Source of the DNA: Fusobacterium sp.
GTDB taxonomy: Bacteria; Fusobacteriota; Fusobacteriia; Fusobacteriales; Fusobacteriaceae
Reading direction: 5' to 3'
DNA: 34,986 nucleotides
Assembly: GCF_030528405.1 (NCBI RefSeq)
Contig: NZ_JAUMYY010000015.1
Location: forward strand, 2,349 to 37,334
In this document: positions 1-12,557 of the stretch, in pieces
Layout: each line of letters starts with the position of its first letter
Position numbering within the stretch: the first letter of the stretch is position 1
The notes under the pieces: model-generated
The model's input: the letters and a program-made list of their open reading frames with translations, nothing else
Database searches by the model: none
Told to the model about the DNA's origin: nothing
Program-made: the position numbers and the translations under genes

Positions 1-846
1 TTTTTATTTCTATTTTTAATTCCTTTGAAAGTTTTTTCAAAGAATATAGAAAGTAATTTTTATAAAAGAATAGTTTCTTTAACATTGAGTGGAGATGAAA
101 TGCTGTTAAGTTTGGTAGATGATAGTAGAATAGTTGGTTTGTCTGGAAAGATAAATCAAGATAAAGATTTTTCTTATGTTGTAGAAAGTTCAAAAAAATT
201 TCCCAGAGTTGAGAGCAATATAGAAACTTTAATTGAACTGGAACCTGACTTTGTAATAGCAGCTGATTGGATGAAAAGGGATGTCTTATCTCAGATAGAG
301 GATGTAACAGATAATTTATACATATATAAAACTCCTAAGACTTTCATCGAACAAAAGAAGCTGATACAAGAATTGGCAAGAATATTTATGGTAGAAAATA
401 GGGGCAAGAAAATAGTAGAGGATATGGAAGTGCGCCTGGAAAGACTTCAAGAGAAAATAAAAAAATCATATAGTGGAAAAAAACCTAGAATTTTACTTTA
501 TACTTCTTATGAAACTACAGCTGGTTTTGACACAAGTTTTAATGATTTAGTTGAAGTTATATATTGTGTAAATGCAGCAGCAGAAATTGGAATAAAGGGT
601 TCGGAAAAAATTTCTAAAGAAAAAATAATAGAAATTGATCCAGATATAATTGTTATACCTGTATGGTCTTCAGATAGCTCACCTAAGTTTGCAGATTTTG
701 TAAAAAATGATACAAGTTTTAAGGATTTAAAAGCAATTAAATCTAAGAAAGTAATTGTAGTACCCTATAGAGTTACGACACCGACTTCACAATATATGAT
801 AGATGGAATAGAAATTTTAGCTGAAAAAGTTTACAATTTGAAATAA
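1..846 (+). CDS. ABC transporter substrate-binding protein (BtuF/FecB/HmuT type), 5' end cut by window
   Basis: This is a periplasmic-binding-protein-like lipoprotein or secreted protein of the class that feeds FecCD-type importers of corrinoids, haem or ferric siderophores. The reading frame is open from base 1. The first codons read FLFLFLIP, the hydrophobic core of a signal peptide, so the true start lies upstream of the window and the TTG at 25 is not a real start. The mature part shows the family pattern: an N-terminal lobe with VGLSGKIN and IETLIELEPDFVIAA, a long linking helix, then a C-terminal lobe with KEKIIEIDPDIIVIP. It is followed after 21 bases by the permease and ATPase genes. 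The downstream cbiZ, cobN and TIM-barrel genes point to a corrinoid ligand, but haem cannot be excluded from sequence alone. Family confidence is high and ligand confidence is moderate. Confidence 0.9.
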   Translation, partial: FLFLFLIPLKVFSKNIESNFYKRIVSLTLSGDEMLLSLVDDSRIVGLSGKINQDKDFSYVVESSKKFPRVESNIETLIELEPDFVIAADWMKRDVLSQIEDVTDNLYIYKTPKTFIEQKKLIQELARIFMVENRGKKIVEDMEVRLERLQEKIKKSYSGKKPRILLYTSYETTAGFDTSFNDLVEVIYCVNAAAEIGIKGSEKISKEKIIEIDPDIIVIPVWSSDSSPKFADFVKNDTSFKDLKAIKSKKVIVVPYRVTTPTSQYMIDGIEILAEKVYNLK

Positions 847-867
847 AAAATATTTGAGGTGAAAGCT

Positions 868-1896
868 TTGAAAAAGGAAAGAATAAATTTTAACTTAGTA
901 ATATTTCTTCTATTATTAGTTACCATTACTTTCTCACTTTTTTATGGTGCAGTGAAGGTTCCTATTTTAGAAATATTTAAAATAATACTTAATAAAACAG
1001 GGCTCAGTGATTTTGAAATAGCTAAGAAAGGTTTTATACCTATTATTTTTTATGTGAGACTACCCAGAATTTTTGTTTCTATATTAGTCGGAGGCGCCTT
1101 AGCTGTTTCAGGTTGTACCATGCAGAGTATACTTAAAAACCCTATAGCCGATTCAAGCATAATAGGTATATCAAGTGGGGCAAGTCTAGGCGCCGTACTG
1201 GCTATAGCAACTGGATTAAGTACACAATATATATTTGCTATGCCAATTTTCTCAATATTTTTCTCTCTTTTAGTTTCAAGTTTAGTCTATAGGATATCTG
1301 TTATGAGAGGAAGGACAGATAATTTACTTTTAATTTTGTCTGGTATTGCAATTAGCAGTTTTGTAAGTGCAATCTCTTCTTTAATATTAACTAATTTGAT
1401 GGAATCACAGATAAGAGAATATGTTTTTTGGTCAGTAGGAAGCTTAAGCGGAAGAAGATGGGAGCATTTTTTTCTAGGTCTTGCTCCTATATCGATCTTA
1501 TCATTAGTACTTTTTTATTATGGGAAAGAATTAAATATTTTGTTGCTTGGAGATGAGGAAGCAAAATCTTTGGGGATAAATGTAGCATTTATGAGGAAGA
1601 AAATACTAGTTATGGTTGCTATATTAACAGCTATGTCTGTTTGTATAAGTGGAAATATAGGTTTTATAGGTTTGGTTATTCCGCATGTGCTTAGAAGAAT
1701 TATAGGACCAGACAACAGGAAATTATTGAAAGCATCTTTTCTTGCAGGAGCATTCTTTTTAAATTTAAGCGATTTAATTTCTCGGCTTGTATTAAGTCCA
1801 GCTGAAATAAGTGTAGGAATTATTACAGCATTAATAGGAGCCCCATATTTTGTGTATTTAATCATAAAATTTAGAAGAGGAGGAAGAGAGATATGA
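868..1896 (+). CDS. FecCD/BtuC-type ABC transporter permease
   Basis: This is the integral membrane subunit of a type II importer, expected to form a dimer in the inner membrane and accept ligand from the binding protein encoded just upstream. The protein is about 342 residues with many hydrophobic segments, the usual size and roughly ten-helix layout of the family. The family motifs are visible: RLPRIFVSILVGGALAVSG near the N terminus, the NPIADSSIIGISSGASLGAV stretch after it, and GFIGLVIPHVLRR near the C terminus. A GTG at 859 is possible, but it overlaps the GAGG ribosome-binding site at 856-859. The TTG at 868 has that site at a spacing of 8 and is preferred. The stop overlaps the ATG of the ATPase gene (ATGA), which indicates translational coupling. 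Confidence 0.93.
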   Translation: MKKERINFNLVIFLLLLVTITFSLFYGAVKVPILEIFKIILNKTGLSDFEIAKKGFIPIIFYVRLPRIFVSILVGGALAVSGCTMQSILKNPIADSSIIGISSGASLGAVLAIATGLSTQYIFAMPIFSIFFSLLVSSLVYRISVMRGRTDNLLLILSGIAISSFVSAISSLILTNLMESQIREYVFWSVGSLSGRRWEHFFLGLAPISILSLVLFYYGKELNILLLGDEEAKSLGINVAFMRKKILVMVAILTAMSVCISGNIGFIGLVIPHVLRRIIGPDNRKLLKASFLAGAFFLNLSDLISRLVLSPAEISVGIITALIGAPYFVYLIIKFRRGGREI

Positions 1897-2663
1897 ATAT
1901 TTTAGAAGTTAACAATATTACATATAAAATTGATAGTAGAGAAATATTAAAAAATCTCTCTTTTAAAGTAAAAAAATCTGAGATTATAGGTGTTATAGGA
2001 CCTAATGGAAGTGGGAAAACAAGTCTTCTTAAGGCATTAAATAGAATTAATAGTATAGATAGCGGAGAAATTTTAATAGAGAATAAGAATATAAAAAAAT
2101 ATAGAGAAAAAGATCTGGCAAAAAAGATATCTTTTATGAATCAAAATACCAATTTAACTTTTGACTTTCCCTGCATAGATGTTGTGGTTCTTGGAAGATA
2201 TCCATATTTAGAAAGATTTGAAGAATATGGAAAAAGTGATGTAGAACTTGCTGAAAAATATATGAAGTTGACAGATACTTTGAAATTCAGGGATAAGTCC
2301 ATACTGGAGATATCAGGAGGAGAACGGCAAAGAGTTTTGTTTGCAAAAGTTTTAACGCAGGAAACAGATATTACACTTTTGGATGAACCTTTTTCAAGTA
2401 TGGATATGCTATATGAGGAAGAGCTTTTTAAATATGTGGAATCGATGAAAGATATAGGCAAGACTGTCATTTCAGTTGTTCATAATCTAAGAATGGCAAT
2501 AAAATACTGCACAAGACTTATACTTCTACATAATGGAGAAATATTAAAGGACGGAAGACCTCTTGAGGTTATAACAGAGGAAAATCTAAACAGAGCTTTT
2601 AGTATAAAAACTAAGGTATACCATAATGAGATATCGAACTGTCTGGATTTTCATATTTTATAA
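1893..2663 (+). CDS. ABC transporter ATP-binding protein (FecE/BtuD type)
   Basis: This is the cytoplasmic ATPase that powers the preceding permease. The 256-residue protein has all nucleotide-binding motifs intact: Walker A GPNGSGKT at residues 36-43, a Q-loop region around FMNQN at 81-85, the signature SGGERQ at 141-146, Walker B ITLLDEP at 160-166, and the switch histidine in VVHNLR at about 197. The motif GRYPY at 101-105 is common in siderophore, haem and cobalamin importers of this class. It overlaps the permease gene by 4 bases and is followed by cbiZ after 27 bases, so the three transporter genes are part of the larger operon. Which tetrapyrrole or chelate it imports is inferred from the neighbours only. 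Confidence 0.94.
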   Translation: MNILEVNNITYKIDSREILKNLSFKVKKSEIIGVIGPNGSGKTSLLKALNRINSIDSGEILIENKNIKKYREKDLAKKISFMNQNTNLTFDFPCIDVVVLGRYPYLERFEEYGKSDVELAEKYMKLTDTLKFRDKSILEISGGERQRVLFAKVLTQETDITLLDEPFSSMDMLYEEELFKYVESMKDIGKTVISVVHNLRMAIKYCTRLILLHNGEILKDGRPLEVITEENLNRAFSIKTKVYHNEISNCLDFHIL

Positions 2664-2690
2664 TTGTATGAATTTATGAAAGGACTTACT

Positions 2691-3812
2691 ATGACTATAC
2701 TTGATAATGGAGATAAAATTTATAGATATAATAAAAGTGTTATCATCAAATTTACAGGGAAAAGAGCTGTTTTAAGTACAGGGGTTATAAATGGAGGTTA
2801 TAGTGAACATTTAACTTCTATTTTTAATAACGATGCTAAAACCGCACCAGGAATGGGTTGTCAATTAAAGGCACCTACTTATAAGGAACATATGGAAATC
2901 CTTTCACAGGAAATGGGATTGGATCCTAGATATACAAGTGGTTTAGGAACAGCTGCTGATATGGAGAATATGTCTATAATTGTTGAAAAATTTTCTAATT
3001 TATCAGTTACTGCACTTGTAACTGCTGGTATAGAAACAAATGGTGGTCGTGTTGGAGATGAGGCTTCATATACTGAAAATAATGGAAAAGTAGAAAAAAT
3101 TGAAAATATAAAACACGGAACTATAAATATTATTGTATCAGTTGATGCAAACTTAGCACCTAGAACTCTAACTAGAGCCTTAGTAACGATAACGGAAGCT
3201 AAAACAGCCGCAATACAAGAGCTTTTAGAGGGAAGCAAATATTCACATGGTATAGCAACAGGTTCAGGAACAGATGGAACAATAGTTTATGCAAATTTAG
3301 AAAGTAAAGATATCTATAATGATGCAGGCAAGCATTCAAAGCTGGGAGAACTTATTGGAAAAGCTGTGAAGAAGGCAGTAAAAGATGCGCTTTCTAAACA
3401 GTCTAATTTAAATCCTGAAACTCAGAAATCTATTTTTAGAAGATTTAGAAGATATGGTTTCAGTGCGGAAAAAATTTGGTCTAGCTATATGGAGCTTAGG
3501 CCAGAAGTAGCAAACAAAAAATTAGAATATATTGAGTTTATAAAAAAAATTGAAAGAGATGAAAAGTTAGTCGCTTTAACATCTTTATATATACATTTAA
3601 TGGATCAGTTTGATTGGGGTCTTCTTTCAAAAAAGATTGTTGAAGAAGAATGTTTAAATATTTTAAAAGTTGTAAGTAGTTATCTTAACATAAATTTTGA
3701 TGCTGGGAAATTTGAAATCAGCAGAGAGAAGTATGACAATTTTTTTGATTATTTAGTAGATAGATTCATTTTTATTATGATTGAATTTATTCGAGAAAAA
3801 TGGGAGGTCTAA
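2691..3812 (+). CDS. cbiZ: CbiZ-type adenosylcobinamide amidohydrolase with C-terminal extension
   Basis: CbiZ hydrolyses the amide bond that joins the aminopropanol arm to the corrin ring, giving adenosylcobyric acid, so that salvaged corrinoids can be rebuilt with a different lower ligand. The family pattern is clear over about residues 15-235: FTGKRAVLSTGVINGG near the start, TALVTAGIE at 107-115, GTINIIVSVDANLAP at 143-157, TITEAKTAAIQEL at 166-178, and ATGSGTDGTIV at 189-199. The remaining roughly 135 residues match no domain I recognise, are mostly helical in appearance, and exceed the usual CbiZ length. A TTG at 2664 is in frame, but AAGGA at 2680-2684 sits 6 bases before the ATG at 2691, which is chosen. 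The stop overlaps the cobN start (TAATG). It follows a corrinoid-type ABC importer, as CbiZ genes often do. Confidence 0.88.
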   Translation: MTILDNGDKIYRYNKSVIIKFTGKRAVLSTGVINGGYSEHLTSIFNNDAKTAPGMGCQLKAPTYKEHMEILSQEMGLDPRYTSGLGTAADMENMSIIVEKFSNLSVTALVTAGIETNGGRVGDEASYTENNGKVEKIENIKHGTINIIVSVDANLAPRTLTRALVTITEAKTAAIQELLEGSKYSHGIATGSGTDGTIVYANLESKDIYNDAGKHSKLGELIGKAVKKAVKDALSKQSNLNPETQKSIFRRFRRYGFSAEKIWSSYMELRPEVANKKLEYIEFIKKIERDEKLVALTSLYIHLMDQFDWGLLSKKIVEEECLNILKVVSSYLNINFDAGKFEISREKYDNFFDYLVDRFIFIMIEFIREKWEV

Positions 3813-6800
3813 TGTTTAAAATAGTTTTTATAACATCAAAATTTGATAATATTTATAGCATAAATAAAGTTTCCCATAGTTTGCTTGATGAATATCCAAA
3901 TAAATTTGATTTTAAATATTATAAGATATCGGAAATAGATAATTCTTCTCAGAAGTATGAAGAACTTAAAGATGATATAGGAGGCAGTAATTTAGTTTGT
4001 ATTATGCTACATGGTGGGGTATCAACTTTCAAAAAATTTTTAAAATTAAAAGAAGAGTTTAACCAAAGAATCCCATTTTTTATACATTCCACAATAGAAG
4101 ATGAGAATAGAGAATTTATTTCAAAATCAGGTCTTTCTCTGCTTGTTCAAGATAAGTTGAGTAAGTATTATTCATTAGGTGGGGAAAAAAATTATAGAAA
4201 TATGATACTTTATACGGCAAATTCATTAGTTAAAACAGATTATGAAGTAGATGATTATGAATTTCCTAGATGGGAAGGTATATATGACTATGAAATTTCA
4301 GACTGTATAAGTAAGGAGGAAGAAAAATCCTATTTAGATAAGTTATTGGATAGAAAAAATGTAATTGCTTTAATGGTGCATGGTAAGGAATGGAAAACAA
4401 AAAAAATAAAGGTTATTAATAAATTTGTTGAAGAGATAAGAAAAGAAGGAGGCGAGCCCTTAGTAGTCTTTACAAATTCAGTACCTAATCCCGAAATAAA
4501 ATCTAAAGGTACCAGATGGGTTATAGACAACTATTTTAAAAGGAATGGAAAAGTTATACCCAGTTCAATAATAAACTTAATAGCTTATTCACAAAGTATT
4601 TTTGACCAGCCTGGTGATGGAATGGCAATGGTTGATAGAAGTATCTTTGAAGATTTAAATATACCTGTTATACAAGCTATGAATACCTATCAAGACAGAG
4701 AAACTTGGGAAAATGATATAAGAGGCTTAGATGCTATGTCTTTGACTTCAAATGTTTACTATCCAGAATTTGATGGACAAATTATTTCAGTTACCTGTTG
4801 TACTCACGAAACAGTAATTGATGAGTTTGGAGAAAATTCAATATTTTTACCTATAGATGAAAGAATAAATAAAATAGTAAGAATGGCAATGGGATGGTCT
4901 AGGTTAGCTAATAAAGAAAATAAAGATAAGAAAGTTGCCATTATATTACATAATATGCCTCCAAGAAATGATATGATAGGTTGTGCATTTGGCTTAGATA
5001 CACCTAATTCAGTTTATAATATGGTAGAAACTTTTTCAGAGATGGGAATAATTACGGCTTATAAATTTGAAAATGGAGATGATATTATTCAAAGAATAAT
5101 AAAAACAGTCAGTAATGATCAAAAATGGCTAAGTGCTGAAAAAGTTTTAGAAAGAAGCATTGATACTATAGAGAAGGAAAAATATTCAAAATGGTTTACA
5201 AATTTGGATCTAAAGATAAAGAATAAGATTATAAGTCAATGGGGTGCTCCCCCAGGAGAATTTATGGTATATAATGAACTTTTACCTGTACCTGGGATAC
5301 TGAATGGAAATATTTTTATAGGTTTACAGCCAGCTAGAGGAATGATGGAAAGAGCTGAGGAGCTTTATCACAATACAGATTTTGTTGTTCCACATCAATA
5401 TTATTCCTTTTATAAATGGATAAAAGAAGAATTTAAGGCTGATGTCATCTATCATGTTGGTACACATGGCACTCTTGAGTGGTTACCTGGGAAGGAGATA
5501 GGGCTTTGTAATTCTTCTTGTCCCGATTTTAATATTGATGATATTCCTCATTTATATGACTATTCAATCAATGTTACAGGAGAGGGTTTACAGGCAAAAA
5601 GAAGAAGCTATGCTACACTTATTTCCTATATGATTCCCGCATTAACTTTGGCTGGAGAATATGAGGATATTGAGGAGATGGATGAACTTATTAAACAGTA
5701 TTATCAAGCTGAAAATGCAAGAGATCCTAAGATAGAGGAAATAAAAGAAAATATTTTAGAGAGAGTTTTTAAATACAATTATAATTTAGATATGAATCTT
5801 GATAAAGAAACGATAAGAAATAATTATAAGGATTTTATAAATAAACTTCATTCCTATATAGAGGAACTTAAATCATCTACCATTAAAGATGGCTTACATA
5901 TTTTAGGGGAAGCAGCTGCTGGAGATAGATGTGCCACATTGATACAGGCACTTTTGAGAATAGATAGTTGTGGAATATTAGCAGCAGACAAAGCAGTAGC
6001 AAAAGCTCTGGGCTACGATATAGATGAGCTTATTGATAATCCCTGTGTAGTAAGAGATGGAAAGAGTAATTTAATGCTTTTAGATGATATAAGAAATATT
6101 TGCACAGATATAATTAAAGAAATTATAAGTTCAGAAAAGAGTTTAGAGAAAGATATATTTAAAAATGAATATGCAAATTATGGAGTGAAAGAAAAGAAAT
6201 ATTTAAATACTTTAAGAAAAAATATTTTAGAAATAGTTTTACCCAAAATAAATCAAACTGAGAGAGAAAAATTAAATACAAAAATTGGAGCTGAGGGAAA
6301 GTTCATTATTCCAGGTCAATCTGGCTGTCCAACTAGAGGAAATATAGATATTTTACCGACAGGAACTAATTTTTATTCCATAGATCCTAATAAAATTCCT
6401 TCGAGAGCTGCATGGAAGGTAGGAAAAAAATTAGCCAATGAGTTGATTGAGAGATATCTTTCTGATGAGGGAGAACTTCCTAAAAATATAGCAATGATAA
6501 TCTACAGCGGTGAAACAATGAAAACTAATGGAGATGATATAGCTGAAGCTCTTTATTTAATGGGAGTAAGACCTATATGGTTAAATGAAGGAGATAGAGT
6601 TATAGGGCTTGAAGCAATACCTTACGAAGAGTTAAAAAGACCTAGAATAGATGTAACCTTAAGAATAACTGGTTTATTTAGAGATACCTTTCCTATACTA
6701 ATTAGACTCTTAGAAGAAGCTGTAAATTTAGTTTCACAATTGGATGAATCAGAAGAAAATAACTATATTAAAAAGAATATAAATGAAGATATAGTAAAAC

Positions 6801-7570
6801 TTTTGGAAGATGGTTATTCTCTGGAAGAATCGGAAAAACTTTCTAAGATGAGAGTATTTGGTTGTCCTCCAGGAACTTATGGGGCTGGTGTCGGCGTTTT
6901 AATATATTCAAAGCAATGGAATAGCGCAGAAGACTTAGGTAGAGCCTATGTAAACTGGTCTTCATATGCCTATGGCTCAGATTATCATGGTACAAAGGCA
7001 GAAAATATGTTTATGCAAAGAATGAAAAAAGCTGAAGTGACTGTAAAAAATGAGAGCTCTGTTGAAATTGATATGTTGGAGAGTGATGATTACTTTGTAT
7101 ATCACGGAGGCTTAGTTGCAGCTATTAAATATGCAAGTGGAGAAAGCCCTAAATCATATAGTGGTAACACAAGTGATCCAGAAAGAGTAAAAATAAAAAA
7201 TATCAAAGAAGAAACAGCAAGGATAATGAGAAGTAGAATTTTAAATCCAAAATGGTTTGAGGGTTTAAAAAGACATGGATATAAGGGAGCTCAGGAAGTC
7301 AGTGGAGCAGTGGATATATTTTTTGGATGGGATGCAACAGCAGAAGTTGCAGAAGATTGGATGTACGACAGAATAAGTGAGACTTATATAGAAAATGTAG
7401 AAAATAGAAAGTGGCTTGCAGAGCATAATCCACATGCAGTACTTAATATAAGTGAAAGATTATTGGAGGCAAATCAACGGAATATGTGGAAGGCATCTCA
7501 GGAAAAATTGGAAATATTAAGAAATATTTATTTAAATATTGAAGGAGATGTTGAAGCTTATGAAGAATGA
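3812..7570 (+). CDS. cobN: CobN/ChlH-family metal chelatase large subunit
   Basis: This is the large porphyrin- or corrin-binding subunit of an ATP-dependent chelatase. CobN inserts cobalt into hydrogenobyrinic acid a,c-diamide and ChlH binds protoporphyrin for magnesium. The related HmuS proteins of Bacteroidetes haem operons have been reported to remove iron from haem. The length (1252 residues) is typical of CobN. Visible family blocks are HVGTHGTLEWLPGKE at about 548-562, GPP-like GAPPGEFMVYN near 480, the cobalamin-pathway-type segment GQSGCPTRGN near 835, RVFGCPPGTYGAGV, and the C-terminal FFGWDATAEVAEDWMYD. An upstream in-frame ATG at 3800 overlaps the GGGAGG site at 3802-3807, so 3812 is preferred. 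ATPase partners lie two and three genes downstream. CobN is favoured over ChlH because of the corrinoid neighbours. The direction of the reaction (metal insertion or removal) cannot be read from the sequence. Confidence 0.92.
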   Translation: MFKIVFITSKFDNIYSINKVSHSLLDEYPNKFDFKYYKISEIDNSSQKYEELKDDIGGSNLVCIMLHGGVSTFKKFLKLKEEFNQRIPFFIHSTIEDENREFISKSGLSLLVQDKLSKYYSLGGEKNYRNMILYTANSLVKTDYEVDDYEFPRWEGIYDYEISDCISKEEEKSYLDKLLDRKNVIALMVHGKEWKTKKIKVINKFVEEIRKEGGEPLVVFTNSVPNPEIKSKGTRWVIDNYFKRNGKVIPSSIINLIAYSQSIFDQPGDGMAMVDRSIFEDLNIPVIQAMNTYQDRETWENDIRGLDAMSLTSNVYYPEFDGQIISVTCCTHETVIDEFGENSIFLPIDERINKIVRMAMGWSRLANKENKDKKVAIILHNMPPRNDMIGCAFGLDTPNSVYNMVETFSEMGIITAYKFENGDDIIQRIIKTVSNDQKWLSAEKVLERSIDTIEKEKYSKWFTNLDLKIKNKIISQWGAPPGEFMVYNELLPVPGILNGNIFIGLQPARGMMERAEELYHNTDFVVPHQYYSFYKWIKEEFKADVIYHVGTHGTLEWLPGKEIGLCNSSCPDFNIDDIPHLYDYSINVTGEGLQAKRRSYATLISYMIPALTLAGEYEDIEEMDELIKQYYQAENARDPKIEEIKENILERVFKYNYNLDMNLDKETIRNNYKDFINKLHSYIEELKSSTIKDGLHILGEAAAGDRCATLIQALLRIDSCGILAADKAVAKALGYDIDELIDNPCVVRDGKSNLMLLDDIRNICTDIIKEIISSEKSLEKDIFKNEYANYGVKEKKYLNTLRKNILEIVLPKINQTEREKLNTKIGAEGKFIIPGQSGCPTRGNIDILPTGTNFYSIDPNKIPSRAAWKVGKKLANELIERYLSDEGELPKNIAMIIYSGETMKTNGDDIAEALYLMGVRPIWLNEGDRVIGLEAIPYEELKRPRIDVTLRITGLFRDTFPILIRLLEEAVNLVSQLDESEENNYIKKNINEDIVKLLEDGYSLEESEKLSKMRVFGCPPGTYGAGVGVLIYSKQWNSAEDLGRAYVNWSSYAYGSDYHGTKAENMFMQRMKKAEVTVKNESSVEIDMLESDDYFVYHGGLVAAIKYASGESPKSYSGNTSDPERVKIKNIKEETARIMRSRILNPKWFEGLKRHGYKGAQEVSGAVDIFFGWDATAEVAEDWMYDRISETYIENVENRKWLAEHNPHAVLNISERLLEANQRNMWKASQEKLEILRNIYLNIEGDVEAYEE

Positions 7571-8609
7571 GGGAGGAATAAAAATAAAATATTTAGTTCT
7601 GTGGTTAGCTGATGCTTGCAATCTGAACTGTAAATATTGTTATGCAGCTCCCTATTTTACAAATAAATTTATGACTTTTGAAACAGCCAAAAAGGTTATA
7701 GATATGTACGCAGATAAAAAATTTACTTTGATTTTAGCTGGGGGAGAACCTCTTTTAAATTTTCAGCTTATAGAGAAGTTATATTATTATTTAAAAGAAA
7801 AGAATGAATATGATGTAAAGATAGGCTTGCAGACCAATGCAACTCTTATAGATGACGAGATAGCAAAAAAGTTATCTAATATGGATATAAATATAGGAGT
7901 TAGTTTTGATGGAGATGTAAAAATTAATGAAGCTTTAAGAGGTGGAACAAAAGAAACTTTAAGAGGGATAAAATTACTTGCCAGCTACAAAAAAAATATA
8001 AATTTAAATGCAGTTATAAGTGAAAAAAATGTGGATAAGCTTGAAAATTTAATTGATATGGCATATTATTTGGGAAATGTAAATGCTGTAGGCTTAGATT
8101 TATTGAGAATAGCTGGGAATTGTTTAAAAAATGAAGATGAAAGTTTAAAGGCTATTGATAATGAAACCATCTATATGAACTTAAAAAAAGCTAATGAAAG
8201 AGTGAAACTTTTAAGTGCATTGACTAATAAAAAGATAGTTATAAGAGAAATACAAGATGTCAAATTTAGAGAATGTGCAAACTGTCATTCAGACAATTAT
8301 TGTTATTCTTCGATTGGAGAAGCTATGGTAGTAACCCCTTATGGTGATACCTATCCATGTAGTTCCTTTGTTGGAAATAAAGATTATTATATGGGGAATA
8401 TAGATTCCAAGATATCAATAATAAAATTAAATTCAGGTAAGTACGAAAGTTGTAATTATTGTGAATATAGAATGATATGTAAGGGTTGTTGCCCATCTCG
8501 AATGATTTTTAATAAAGAATATAATGTTGAGGATAGAGATTGCATTTTAAGAAAAGCAATTTTTAAAATCTTAAAAGAGGAAAGAGAACAGGAGGCATTT
8601 AATGGCTAA
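7560..8609 (+). CDS. Radical SAM/SPASM-domain protein
   Basis: This is a radical S-adenosylmethionine enzyme. The CX3CX2C cluster motif is at residues 20-27 (CNLNCKYC), preceded by a beta strand, and the SAM-binding GGEP motif follows at about residue 62. The C-terminal part has many cysteines: CANC, a YPCSSF segment, [14 protein letters not shown] and a final RDC. This is the arrangement of a SPASM domain that binds extra iron-sulfur clusters. Start choice is uncertain: TTG 7539 and ATG 7548 overlap the AAGGAG site at 7542-7547, whereas ATG 7560 lies 12 bases after it. A second strong site, GGGAGG at 7571-7576, has no ATG, GTG or TTG behind it. The gene overlaps cobN by 11 bases and the ChlI gene by 8, so it is embedded in the chelatase gene set. 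The substrate is unknown; modification of a tetrapyrrole or of a partner protein is an inference from position. Confidence 0.88.
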
Positions 8610-9633
8610 AAATTTTTTATACCCTTTTACTGCCATAGTAGGACAGGAAAAAATGAAAGAAGCGCTTATTTTAAATATTATAAATCCCAGCTTAGGGGGA
8701 GTCCTTATAAGAGGAGAAAAAGGAACTGCAAAGTCCACTTTAGTTAGAGGAATAGTAAATTTATTGGCAGAAAGGGAAGAAAACTCATGTGAATTTCATT
8801 GTGACCCTTATAAGGTAGATGATTTTTGTTCTCTGTGTAGAGAAAAATATCTTAAAGATGAGCAAATAGAAAGACAGAGCTCTTCTATGAGAGTGATAAA
8901 TCTCCCGATAAGCGCAACAGAGGATAGAGTGGTGGGAACACTTGACATAGAACATGCTATAAAAACTGGCGAAAAAAAGTTTGAAAAGGGAATATTGGCA
9001 CAGAGCAATAGAAATATTTTGTATGTAGATGAAATAAATCTCTTAGATGATCATATAGTTGATGTATTGCTCGATTCGGCTGCAATGGGGATTAATACTA
9101 TAGAAAGAGAAGGAATTTCTTTTTCCCATCCTGCAAAATTTATATTAGTTGGAACTATGAATCCAGAAGAGGGAGATTTAAGACCTCAACTGCTTGATAG
9201 ATTTGGACTTGTTGTGGATGTAGTAGCAGAAAGAGAAACAAATAAAAGAATAGAAGTTATAAAAAGAAGATTGGACTTTGAAGCAGAACCAGAAAAGTTT
9301 ATAAAAAAATATTTTGCTGATGAAGAGGAGTTAAAAATAAAAATTGAAAATAGCAAAAAAGTCTTAAAGTATGTTAAATGTAGTGATGAAATGTATGAGT
9401 TGGTTGCAAAGATTTCTATTGCTTTAAATGTAGATGGGCATAGAGCTGATATTGCACTTATAAAGACGGCTAGGACTATTGCAGCATTTGAAAATAGAAT
9501 AGAAGTTATAAAAGATGACATATTAAGGGCAGCTGTCTTGGCTCTACCTCATAGGATGAGAAAAACTCCTTTTGAAGATAGTGTTTTAGATGAAAAACAG
9601 ATAGAGAAATTAGTGGATAATTTAAGCATATAA
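8602..9633 (+). CDS. chlI: ChlI/BchI-type AAA+ chelatase ATPase
   Basis: This is the motor subunit of a metal chelatase, expected to form a ring that works with the VWA partner and the CobN-type subunit in the cytoplasm. The 343-residue protein has Walker A GEKGTAKS at 38-45, Walker B LYVDEIN at 140-146, the [20 protein letters not shown] block (sensor 1 and arginine finger region), and AHRADIAL-like sensor 2 context ([19 protein letters not shown]). An insert after Walker A carries four cysteines at residues 63, 67, 76 and 79 (CEFHC and CSLC), a plausible metal or cluster site seen in many ChlI-like proteins. AGGAGG at 8590-8595 supports the ATG at 8602, which overlaps the radical SAM gene. 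It is closely similar to the N-terminal half of the next gene. Confidence 0.93.
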
Positions 9634-9645
9634 TGAGGAGGAGAT

Positions 9646-11571
9646 ATGGTATTTCCTTTTGTAGCAGTAGAAGGGCAGGACAGATTAAAGAAGGCTCTAC
9701 TACTCAATATAATTAATGAAAAAATAGGTGGAGTGCTTATAAATGGTGAGAAGGGAACAGCAAAGTCTACTTTAGTAAGAGGACTAGAAAAGATTTTAAC
9801 GAATAAAAAAATTATAAATTTACCTTTGAATATAACTGAAGATAATTTAGTAGGAAGTATAGACATTGAAAAAACTTTAAAGAGTGGGAAAAAAGTTTTT
9901 CAAGAAGGACTTTTGAAAAAATGCCATAACAATATACTCTACATAGATGAGATAAATCTTTTGGGAGAAAGTATAATTAGCACTATTTTAGATGTGGCAT
10001 CCAGAGAAAAAAATTATATAGAAAGAGAGGGAATAAGTTTTTCTCATGATTCTAAATTTATTTTAATAGGGACAATGAACTCTGAAGAGGGAGATTTAAA
10101 ACCTCAGCTTTTAGATAAATTTGGACTATATGTTAATGTTGAAGGAAGCCAAGATGTTTTGGAAAGAGTAAGCATAGTAAAAAAAAGATTGGACTATGAA
10201 GAAGATCCCATAAAGTTTTCAGAAAAATATTTTGAGTCAGAAGAACTTTTAAAAAAGAAAATCCTAGAAGCTAGGGAAAAGTTAAAAATTATAAAAGTAA
10301 GCAAGCAGATTATGAATATAGCTGTTAAATTTATTGAAGAAGCGAATTGTTTAGGAAATAGGGCTGAGATAATTTTAATAGAAACAGCAAGAGCAATAGC
10401 TGCCTTTGATAAGAGAACTTACCTTAATATTGATGATTTAAAAGAAGCTGCCAGTTTTGTATTGGCACATAGAATAAATTCTAAAAATAAAATTGTAAAT
10501 ACTGATAAAGAGAATAGAGATTCTGAAAATAATGAATTTAATAATCAAGAACAGGATAAAGAAAATAGAAATAATAAATCGAATCAAAAAGAGGAAAATC
10601 AATACTTAAAAGAAAATGATTCAGGCAATGGTGCTCAAGATAACAATGTGGAAAATTTTGATAATGAAGATAAGCAAGAAGAAAATTCACAATATGATGA
10701 TAATAAGGCTACTGATGAGTTAAAAGAAGAAGAATTTGATATAGGGGAAATTTTTAAACTAAAAAATATTTTCTTAGATGCTGCAAAGGATAGATTAGAA
10801 AGACAGGGAAATGGAAAAAGATGTAAAACCAAATCAAGTTCTCTACAGGGAAGATATATAAAAAGTAGTATAGCTAAAGGTAAGATAAACGATTTTGCAT
10901 TGGATGCAAGTATAAGAGCTGCAGCACCCTATCAGCTTGAGAAAAAAAATAAAGAACTTATGATAAATATAAAAAAAGAGCATATAAGAATAAAACAAAG
11001 AGAGAGAAGGACAGGAATTTCTATTTTATTTGTAGTTGATTCAAGTGGTTCTATGGGAGTAAAAAAAAGAATGGAGGCAGTGAAAGGGGCTATTATGTCA
11101 CTTCTGAAAGAGGCCTATGAAAAAAGAGATAAGGTTGGGATGATATCTTTTAGAAAAGATAGGGCTGAGGAGCTTCTACCTTTTACAAGAAGTATTGATC
11201 TGGCACAAAAAAGATTGAAAAAGCTATCAACAGGCGGAAGAACACCTTTGGCTGAAGCTCTTCAAAAAGCATATACTACAGTAAAAAAAGAGATGAAAAA
11301 AGACAAGAAAACTTTGCCAGTTGTTATATTTTTGTCCGATGGAAAAGCCAATTTCTCACTTTACAATAGGGAGCCTGTTAAAGAAAGTTTAGACTTAGCC
11401 GAAAAAATAAAAAGAGAAGGAATGAAATGTATCGTTATAGATACTGAAGAGGGATTTATTAAATTGGAAATGGCAAGGACTTTAAGTGAAAAAATGGGAG
11501 CAGCTTATTATAAACTAGATAATATTAGAAGTGATGATTTGATTCAACTTATAAAAAATAATATTAATTAA
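9646..11571 (+). CDS. chlD: ChlI-ChlD fusion: AAA+ domain, acidic linker, VWA domain
   Basis: This 641-residue protein is the second motor and adaptor subunit of the chelatase. Residues 1-280 form an AAA+ domain with intact Walker A GEKGTAKS at 34-41 and Walker B LYIDEIN at 98-104. Many ChlD proteins have degenerate sites, so intact motifs suggest ATP binding is kept. Residues 281-365 are a low-complexity Asn/Glu/Asp/Lys linker, the acidic hinge typical of ChlD. The C-terminal VWA domain has the MIDAS motif DSSGSMG at 465-471, with TGGRTPLAEAL and LSDGKAN supplying further metal ligands. It lacks the four-cysteine insert of the preceding paralogue. GAGGAGG precedes the ATG, and the gene starts 12 bases after chlI. 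The pair most likely arose by tandem duplication of the ATPase part. Confidence 0.93.
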   Translation: MVFPFVAVEGQDRLKKALLLNIINEKIGGVLINGEKGTAKSTLVRGLEKILTNKKIINLPLNITEDNLVGSIDIEKTLKSGKKVFQEGLLKKCHNNILYIDEINLLGESIISTILDVASREKNYIEREGISFSHDSKFILIGTMNSEEGDLKPQLLDKFGLYVNVEGSQDVLERVSIVKKRLDYEEDPIKFSEKYFESEELLKKKILEAREKLKIIKVSKQIMNIAVKFIEEANCLGNRAEIILIETARAIAAFDKRTYLNIDDLKEAASFVLAHRINSKNKIVNTDKENRDSENNEFNNQEQDKENRNNKSNQKEENQYLKENDSGNGAQDNNVENFDNEDKQEENSQYDDNKATDELKEEEFDIGEIFKLKNIFLDAAKDRLERQGNGKRCKTKSSSLQGRYIKSSIAKGKINDFALDASIRAAAPYQLEKKNKELMINIKKEHIRIKQRERRTGISILFVVDSSGSMGVKKRMEAVKGAIMSLLKEAYEKRDKVGMISFRKDRAEELLPFTRSIDLAQKRLKKLSTGGRTPLAEALQKAYTTVKKEMKKDKKTLPVVIFLSDGKANFSLYNREPVKESLDLAEKIKREGMKCIVIDTEEGFIKLEMARTLSEKMGAAYYKLDNIRSDDLIQLIKNNIN

Positions 11572-11588
11572 AAAAAGAAGGTATTAAG

Positions 11589-12557
11589 ATGTATAAAATA
11601 TTGAATCGAGGAGATTTCTTTTCCCATGATGAATTGAAGAAAAGTATGGATAAATATTCAAGTAAGTATGGATTTGATGGTTACGAACTTATAAAATATA
11701 CAAATAGTGATGAAGGGCATTTGAAAGGATACTTTAAAGGTTATCATATCAGATTTTTTCCATCTTGGATGGAATTTTACAAAGAAGATTTCAGCTCCTT
11801 GTATGAAGAACTGAAGGATAAGAAATATTTTAAGGCTCTTTGTGGTGGTGAAAATTCAAAGTCGGAGCTAGTGAATTATCTTAAAAATGAGCTAGAAATA
11901 GCTAAAAAATTGGAAGTCGAATATATTGTGTTTCATGCTTGTAATATAAAAATACTTGAAAGTTTAACCTATATATTTAAATATTCTGATTTGGAAGTGT
12001 TGGAAAATGTTGTTAAGATAATAAATGAAATTTTTGAAAACAAAGACTATAAATTTGAACTTCTCTTTGAAAATCTATGGTGGCCTGGTTTAAGACTTAC
12101 AAATAAAGAAGAAATGGAATATCTTTTAAAAAATATAAACTATAAAAATATAGGTTTTATCCTTGATACAGGACATATGATAAATAATAACATTGAAATT
12201 AAAAATTCTAAAGAGGCAGTTGACTACATAAGGAAGAATTTAGATAATCTGGGAGAATACAAAAAGTATATCTATGGCATGCATCTTAATTATTCATTGT
12301 CTGGACAATATGTAAAAACTGCCATAGAAAAAAATAGAAAAATAGATTTAGATATTTATGAATGTATGAAAAATATATACGAACACATTAATCGCATAGA
12401 TTATCATGACCCGTTTGAAGATGAGGGAATTATAGATATAATAAAGGCTCTTCCTATTAAATATTTAGTATACGAATTAATAGGAAAAAGTGAGGAAGAA
12501 TTAGAAAGTAAGATAGAAAGACAGGATAAAATTTTGAAAAAATTTTTAGAATTTTAA
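11589..12557 (+). CDS. AP-endonuclease-2/xylose-isomerase-like TIM barrel, candidate CbiR
   Basis: This 322-residue protein has the pattern of the sugar phosphate isomerase/epimerase or AP endonuclease 2 superfamily: alternating strands and helices with candidate metal ligands at His116 (VFHACN), Glu161 (LLFENLWWPG), Asp193 and His196 (LDTGHM) and His232 (GMHLNYS). By family knowledge, CbiR, the cobamide-remodelling hydrolase described from Akkermansia, belongs to this superfamily and cuts the nucleotide loop of cobamides. This gene is the last of an operon with corrinoid-type transport genes, cbiZ and cobN, so CbiR is the best specific guess. The superfamily is broad, however, and without an alignment the assignment is inference. 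The gap to the preceding gene is 17 bases, and a hairpin terminator follows. Confidence 0.8.
   Translation: MYKILNRGDFFSHDELKKSMDKYSSKYGFDGYELIKYTNSDEGHLKGYFKGYHIRFFPSWMEFYKEDFSSLYEELKDKKYFKALCGGENSKSELVNYLKNELEIAKKLEVEYIVFHACNIKILESLTYIFKYSDLEVLENVVKIINEIFENKDYKFELLFENLWWPGLRLTNKEEMEYLLKNINYKNIGFILDTGHMINNNIEIKNSKEAVDYIRKNLDNLGEYKKYIYGMHLNYSLSGQYVKTAIEKNRKIDLDIYECMKNIYEHINRIDYHDPFEDEGIIDIIKALPIKYLVYELIGKSEEELESKIERQDKILKKFLEF

Follow-up and report, generated by a model that had tools for sequence, protein, structure and literature searches.

Why would a bacterium that carries the chelatase CbiK also keep a complete, ATP-driven metal chelatase in one operon with a corrinoid-type importer and two putative enzymes for cutting the tails of cobamides? 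This question is raised by a 34,986-nucleotide stretch of DNA from Fusobacterium sp. (contig C63, positions 2349 to 37334; hereafter the window), which belongs to a genome assembly of 1.66 Mb in 76 contigs that is approximately 91% complete. Positions 1 to 12557 are filled on the + strand by nine genes, from a BtuF-type binding protein through an AP-endonuclease-2 TIM-barrel protein, as defined by open reading frames and profile searches. We consider it very probable that this operon serves corrinoid salvage. A more specific proposal, whose chances we regard as evenly balanced, is that the operon salvages and rebuilds cobamides by using an ATP-driven chelatase that acts on imported corrin rings. 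The joining of two putative tail-cutting enzymes and a full ATP-driven chelatase in a unit that is B12-controlled in relatives and resides in CbiK carriers is unusual. We found no description of this operon in the open PMC literature (subscription papers lie mostly outside its reach), including the accessible portions of PMC7733943, PMC12583661, PMC3766115, PMC6593275, PMC7689651, PMC9227772, PMC6460266, PMC10846266, and PMC8123684.

A conserved unit of ten genes

The nine genes in the window represent the Pfam families Peripla_BP_2, FecCD, ABC_tran, CbiZ, CobN-Mg_chel, Radical_SAM, ChlI, a ChlI-plus-VWA fusion, and AP_endonuc_2, and the spacing between adjacent genes ranges from -32 to +17 bases. 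The gene next downstream of the TIM-barrel gene is on the opposite strand. At the other end, the first gene is truncated by the start of the window; its likely ATG is 28 bases before the window (C63:2321) and is separated from the rest of the gene by a 10-N assembly gap. A gene for a TonB-dependent receptor of 673 residues (L002:220-2241, tested by profile) lies directly upstream, outside the window, with about 80 bases between it and the likely BtuF ATG. Therefore, the unit is composed of ten genes once this receptor is counted. The G+C fraction is 0.301 for the operon and 0.286 for the rest of the window.

We surveyed 96 Fusobacteriales genomes and named neighboring genes from their BLAST matches to proteins of the window (other kinds of genes were not called). 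CobN is present in six of these genomes, and all six carry the ten-gene set. The gene order in four relatives (G025, G026, G027, and G028) is the same as that in the window, and in the fifth (G037) the CobN gene is outside the unit and placed just before the receptor gene. The BtuF-type protein shares 53-60% identity with its counterpart in the five relatives, and the CbiZ gene is likewise conserved and present in each operon genome. In G026 (L019:4724-12432), frame breaks, from either decay or assembly error, interrupt or truncate the genes for CobN and both motor subunits. The gene order is more than chance because the same set occurs in all five other CobN-bearing genomes and is colinear in four. 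Thus, the same-strand operon and the protein families described in an initial annotation, which was made from the sequence alone, are borne out by the profile matches, the gene spacing, and the recurrence in relatives. The linkage of CobN with CbiZ and the TIM-barrel gene, which that annotation had suggested surveying, is kept in all six genomes.

The radical SAM/SPASM-type protein has the same distribution as CobN. At an expect (E) value of 1e-40, its profile matches six of the 96 genomes, and these are identical to the CobN set. A naive Fisher test of this co-occurrence gives 1e-9 with shared ancestry ignored, but the six genomes come from no more than three genera and therefore represent few independent co-occurrence events.

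A second BtuF-CobN set with a related receptor adjoins the unit in G025 through G028. This receptor is oppositely directed in G026 and G028, and two BtuF genes are present there in G026. In three relatives (L016:13544-13906, L019:3295-3684, and L021:3895-4275), the TIM-barrel gene is followed by a short gene whose product matches PF02579 (NifX-like).

Evidence for corrinoid uptake

Four relatives (G025, G026, G027, and G028) have a match to the cobalamin riboswitch model RF00174 immediately before the ten-gene unit, with scores of 66.7-77.9 bits, and in G037 a match of 66.9 bits precedes the merged unit. No riboswitch was found in the window itself, and its genome has a single RF00174 match (C47), which is upstream of a second TonB receptor-BtuF pair that lacks CobN (L014:4080-7330). 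Residues 29-239 of the CbiZ protein form a CbiZ domain that far exceeds the Pfam gathering score (PF01955, 186.9 versus 27 bits), and a search of the PDB returned no CbiZ relative. The theme of corrinoid uptake proposed in the initial annotation is therefore supported by the riboswitches in five of five relatives, by the CbiZ domain, and by a CobN protein that is closer to CobN than to ChlH or HmuS.

The same annotation had noted that genes for de novo synthesis are absent. This is true of the window only, and cbi genes and CbiK are found elsewhere in the genome. On contig C3, the products of cbiF, cbiL, cbiT, cbiE, cbiD, and cbiA score over a cut-off with NCBIfam profiles and that of cbiC over a Pfam cut-off; cobD is just below its cut-off, and cbiB is broken in two by a 10-N gap. 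The cbiP reading frame (285 residues, L031:15687-16544) aligns with the cobyric acid synthase profile over its first half only, and therefore the cobamide pathway may be incomplete in this genome. The half-length cbiP, if real, would make corrinoid import more needed. There are five B12-binding-domain matches in the genome, of which three are over the cut-off.

CbiK is located on contig C50 (305.7 bits), and a full-length CbiK is encoded by all six operon genomes. The chelatase formed by CobN, ChlI, and ChlD is therefore not needed for early cobalt insertion. De novo late cobalt insertion was also considered as a role for the operon and was rejected because of the full-length CbiK in all six genomes.

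CobN and its motor subunits

The CobN-type protein exceeds the cut-off of its NCBIfam profile (TIGR02257, 920.6 versus 822.05 bits). When compared with solved structures, it scores 638 bits with Mycobacterium tuberculosis CobN (7c6o), 425 bits with ChlH, and 343 bits with HmuS. The protein carries both the HxGTHG motif of the superfamily and the CobN-type motif SDDYxxYHGG (here ESDDYFVYHGG). Its presumed motor partners, ChlI and the ChlI-ChlD fusion (ChlID), have kept Walker A and Walker B, and ChlID also has the DxSxS of a metal-ion-dependent adhesion site (MIDAS). Six enzymes of the operon (CobN, the SPASM protein, CbiZ, the TIM-barrel protein, ChlI, and ChlID) were tested, and they are taken as cytoplasmic because none has a membrane-like segment. 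We note that second CobN paralogs are found beside the TIM-barrel gene at two loci outside the phylum (L035:12022-15339 and L036:11020-14346), and these have lost the SDDYxxYHGG motif as well as the His that HxGTHG contributes to the active site.

With moderate confidence, we propose that the chelatase acts on an imported corrinoid. The direction of this reaction is a separate matter. An ATP-dependent motor accompanies insertion in the characterized chelatase members. HmuS is a CobN-family haem de-chelatase that is ATP-independent, is membrane anchored, has a Met-rich insertion, and carries LSLDHxxEFMGG at the position of the CobN-type motif, according to the accessible part of PMC12583661. 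The membrane anchors, Met-rich insertion, and motif of HmuS are not seen in the CobN of the window, whose maximum 19-residue hydropathy is 1.45 and which has no more than six Met per 60 residues. We lean only slightly toward insertion or exchange because the motor genes adjoin CobN and no membrane segment is present, whereas HmuS works without ATP and is anchored. Insertion or exchange rather than harvest is accordingly put forward as a tentative preference.

Harvest would mean that the chelatase, aided by the SPASM protein, strips cobalt from foreign corrinoids, much as HmuS takes iron from haem, and that CbiK reuses the metal in the synthesis of the cell's own B12. The existence of HmuS as a CobN-family de-chelatase (PMC12583661, in the part available) provides a precedent, and the CbiK of this genome could use free cobalt. 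Furthermore, CbiM, a component of a cobalt energy-coupling factor transporter, was not found in G000, G025, G027, G028, and G037, in a search that covered no other cobalt transporters. However, CbiM is present in one of six operon genomes and in 38 of the 90 others (Fisher p 0.40, shared ancestry ignored), and its absence is thus not enriched. Cobalt scarcity was therefore rejected as the driver. In addition, destroying an importable corrinoid gives no gain in B12, and the motor-linked CobN without a membrane segment contrasts with the ATP-free, anchored, Met-rich HmuS of the same source. We therefore regard harvest as somewhat unlikely.

It is highly improbable that the operon instead acquires iron from haem or another porphyrin, with haem brought in by the importer and stripped of its metal by CobN. 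FecCD/BtuF importers do resemble haem and siderophore systems, and the top profile for the ATPase is a haem ABC ATPase, although below its cut-off. Moreover, BtuS proteins have been tied to haem iron in Bacteroides in the accessible text of PMC6460266, which cites Rodionov 2003 as the origin of the BtuS name. Nevertheless, the B12 riboswitches of the relatives favor a corrinoid over haem, CbiZ is present, CobN carries SDDYxxYHGG rather than the HmuS motif, and HmuS has the lowest score of the three classes compared above. Haem import was set aside on the basis of the riboswitches, CbiZ, and the motif type.

A TIM-barrel family distinct from CbiR

The last gene of the operon encodes a protein that the initial annotation had linked to CbiR. 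The TIM-barrel protein of the window gave no match to the CbiR profile (NF041277, cut-off 105 bits) at E values up to 10, a range in which the filtering steps of HMMER suppress most matches with E above about 0.1. Two of ten TIM-barrel proteins gave matches of 15.2 and 11.9 bits. Among 18 genomes searched with this profile, only G104 and G106 have proteins that exceed the cut-off, at 214.7 and 141.8 bits. Weak matches alone were found in 13 others, and the match in the window's genome is to a different open reading frame (C11, 29.6 bits). In a tree of 35 rows, which leaves out seven further TIM copies, 28 TIM-barrel proteins are set apart from two CbiR proteins by branches that have support, although the CbiR branches are long and their placement is unsure. 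The CbiR assignment was therefore rejected: the protein is not found by the profile, and its homologs form their own clade rather than grouping with CbiR, an outcome that the annotation had itself named as telling against its claim. The linkage of the family to corrinoid genes is strong.

The best profile for this protein is endonuclease IV (nfo), at 33.6 bits compared to a cut-off of 129.65. All 28 members examined share nine invariant residues (H53, H116, E161, D193, H196, H232, D271, H273, and E296), which probably correspond to the ligands of the endonuclease IV trinuclear metal site (D-x2-H and D-x-H pattern). An AlphaFold2 model made from a three-row alignment has a mean predicted local distance difference test score of 80.6, and its top-ranked Foldseek matches are chains of endonuclease IV, with a template modeling score of about 0.56. 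VIA-align placed sugar epimerases and isomerases on top with no endonuclease IV among its 50 rows, and this ranking therefore gives no support for endonuclease IV over epimerases or isomerases. A sequence search of the PDB returned no informative match. Overall, sequence comparison indicates an endonuclease-IV-like family distinct from CbiR, which appears not to have been tied to B12 previously. That the protein is a nucleotide-loop phosphodiesterase is, in our judgment, a proposition with an equal chance of being right or wrong.

Homologs of the TIM-barrel protein occur in 28 of the 96 Fusobacteriales genomes (31 matches), and the family is therefore not confined to the operon. We examined 18 of the 25 copies outside the operon. 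Nine are same-strand neighbors of receptor or BtuFCD genes, within two genes, and four more have such genes nearby, with some of the BtuF matches being weak (23-28% identity). Riboswitches were found in nine of the 11 stretches scanned, and seven of these head a unit that contains the TIM-barrel gene. The tree places a stand-alone homolog in F. vincentii (L125:12001-12951) together with the copies from the operon, and it looks like a remnant of an operon that has since been lost. Two sequences filed as plasmids that hold a homolog, NZ_CP084075.1 and NZ_CP154629.1 (2.1 and 2.6 Mb), look like whole chromosomes.

The radical SAM protein and related clusters outside the phylum

The radical SAM portion of the label given to the sixth gene product is upheld by PF04055. 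The SPASM name is used here on the basis of sub-cut-off similarity to NCBIfam SPASM enzymes and a Cys pattern, and a Pfam scan gave no SPASM domain match. CX3CX2C and seven later Cys residues are invariant in ten of ten aligned relatives. The gene is overlapped by the genes on both sides, which leaves no gap for a precursor peptide at this site (a search for a precursor elsewhere was not made).

The SPASM alignment was then used to scan 84,980 species genomes, and the best 80 loci were kept; this is not a census. The nine loci with the best E values (L035-L043) adjoin CobN, ChlI/ChlID, or CbiZ, compared to none of the remaining 71, many of which are short. Their hosts are a Clostridiaceae bacterium, Alkalibaculum (two overlapping loci on one contig), and the Negativicutes Phascolarctobacterium, Pectinatus, and Sporomusa. 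A plasmid collection yielded no match to the SPASM gene at E 1e-20. Homologs of the TIM-barrel protein are present in seven of eight genomes with SPASM clusters, compared to zero of four other genomes. The Clostridiaceae unit has the order riboswitch, binding protein, BtuC, BtuD, CbiZ, CobN, SPASM, and TIM, followed by more CobN and BtuFCD genes. In Pectinatus, a riboswitch is followed by the receptor, BtuD, TIM, CbiZ, and BtuF. The stretches scanned from Phascolarctobacterium and Sporomusa (L038, L040, L041, L128, L129, and L131; the scan left out L042, L043, L130, and L133) gave no match to a cobalamin riboswitch.

The Negativicutes stretches also carry nitrogenase-like genes. NflH, NflD, and NflK are present in five of six genomes and NflD plus NflK in the sixth (G101), and these genes adjoin BtuF/BtuC, CobN, SPASM, CbiZ, or TIM genes (L038, L040, L041 with D and K only, L042, L128, and L132). 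A cobA-type adenosyltransferase gene is near the Nfl genes in Sporomusa. An alternative explanation of the operon is that its chelatase makes an imported corrinoid or other tetrapyrrole into a new metallo-tetrapyrrole, with the SPASM protein and, in Negativicutes, the nitrogenase-like reductase modifying the ring, in analogy to coenzyme F430 assembly. The union of NflH, NflD, and NflK with CobN, SPASM, ChlI, ChlID, BtuC, and CbiZ is consistent with this idea, as are NflH scores that are close to, yet below, the CfbC and NifH cut-offs. However, no open reading frame is marked Nfl in the Fusobacteriales stretches as judged by eye (Nfl queries were not run there), the TIM-barrel protein and CbiZ suggest cobamide breakdown, and we know of no enzyme that uses a cofactor of this kind. 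Such a product is therefore quite improbable. A broader scheme is an anaerobic pathway in which the cobalt of foreign corrinoids is removed or swapped by CobN-ChlI-ChlD and the SPASM protein after tail removal by CbiZ and the TIM-barrel protein, probably with the nitrogenase-like reductase in Negativicutes. We view this scheme as unlikely.

A proposed route for salvage and rebuilding

Based on the component types recognized by sequence, the TonB receptor and the BtuFCD-type importer would bring in foreign cobamides. Judging from what is known of their families, CbiZ would cleave the amide bond by which the nucleotide loop is attached, and the TIM-barrel protein would cut a phosphodiester within this loop. 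The products from foreign cobamides would be cobyric acid or precursors of the cobinamide type. With ChlI and the ChlI-ChlD fusion as its motor, CobN may then act on the metal site of the corrin, a step that has no known role in B12 scavenging and of which we are less sure. The direction that we prefer would be insertion or replacement of cobalt in corrinoids that are metal-free or wrongly metallated, and the SPASM enzyme might alter the ring or side chains, or repair them, to make the corrinoid a usable substrate for the chelatase.

Several points weigh against salvage and rebuilding as set out here. We know of no indication that metal-free corrinoids are common, and no chelatase is required if cobamides are only remodeled. 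The B12 riboswitch expected from the initial annotation was found in the relatives, but the window's own genome has none in the 219 bases preceding the receptor gene, where part of a riboswitch would be expected at the spacing of the relatives. Five of the 18 TIM copies, all from one genus, have no receptor or BtuFCD neighbors, and the F. vincentii and A. noterae homologs have no neighbor matching the corrinoid queries. Finally, the solved folds nearest to the model of the SPASM protein are mostly peptide maturases.

Features of the operon, with positions in the window and the profile evidence for each gene product
Feature	Positions	Strand	Evidence
Periplasmic substrate-binding protein, BtuF-type	1..846	+	PF01497 100 bits; start outside window
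ABC permease, BtuC/FecCD type	859..1896	+	PF01032 321 bits; top NCBIfam profiles are BtuC models, below cut-offs
ABC ATPase, BtuD type	1893..2663	+	PF00005; top NCBIfam profiles are haem and corrinoid ATPases, below cut-offs
CbiZ amidohydrolase domain with C-terminal extension of ~140 residues	2664..3812	+	PF01955 186.9 bits
CobN-type class I chelatase large subunit	3800..7570	+	TIGR02257 920.6 bits, cut-off 822
Radical SAM/SPASM-type protein, CobN-linked subfamily	7539..8609	+	PF04055
ChlI-type AAA+ motor subunit	8602..9633	+	TIGR02030 390.7 bits, below cut-off 467
ChlI-ChlD fusion, AAA+ plus VWA	9646..11571	+	TIGR02442 660 bits, below cut-off 779
TIM-barrel metalloprotein, endonuclease-IV-like and distinct from CbiR; predicted to be a cobamide phosphodiesterase	11589..12557	+	PF01261 50 bits

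Significance and comparison with known systems

According to the 2025 HmuS paper (PMC12583661), most members of the chelatase superfamily from bacteria and archaea lack a reliable annotation, apart from those in a few anchored clusters, and salvage in which metal is inserted or removed may matter. Our analyses tie one such poorly annotated group to corrinoid uptake through the riboswitches of relatives, CbiZ, and strict co-occurrence with a radical SAM protein, and the operon offers a direct test system for salvage by the chelatase superfamily. The results also suggest that cobamide tails are removed by a second TIM-barrel family besides CbiR; this would alter predictions of whose cobamides can be used by members of gut communities.

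Four known systems bear comparison with this operon. It resembles the CobN-ChlI-ChlD class I cobaltochelatase in that the CobN equivalog profile is matched over its cut-off and both motor subunits are present, but the window sets these proteins in an uptake operon of CbiK carriers rather than in an aerobic synthesis cluster. The HmuS/BtuS de-chelatases of Bacteroidota belong to the same superfamily and are likewise linked to import. However, HmuS has no need for ATP, is anchored, and is Met-rich, whereas the operon of the window has a motor and its CobN has no membrane segment and a CobN-type motif. As in CbiZ/CbiS cobamide salvage, the CbiZ domain is over the Pfam cut-off and its gene adjoins BtuFCD, although the CbiZ of the window differs by its C-terminal extension and its recurrent linkage to a chelatase. 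Finally, CbiR, the cobamide remodeling phosphodiesterase of Akkermansia (NF041277; PMC7733943, as far as its accessible text goes), shares with the TIM-barrel family the AP-endonuclease-2 superfamily, metal ligands, and linkage to corrinoid genes, whereas the family described here forms a separate clade of proteins of about 320 residues that are closer by profile to endonuclease IV.

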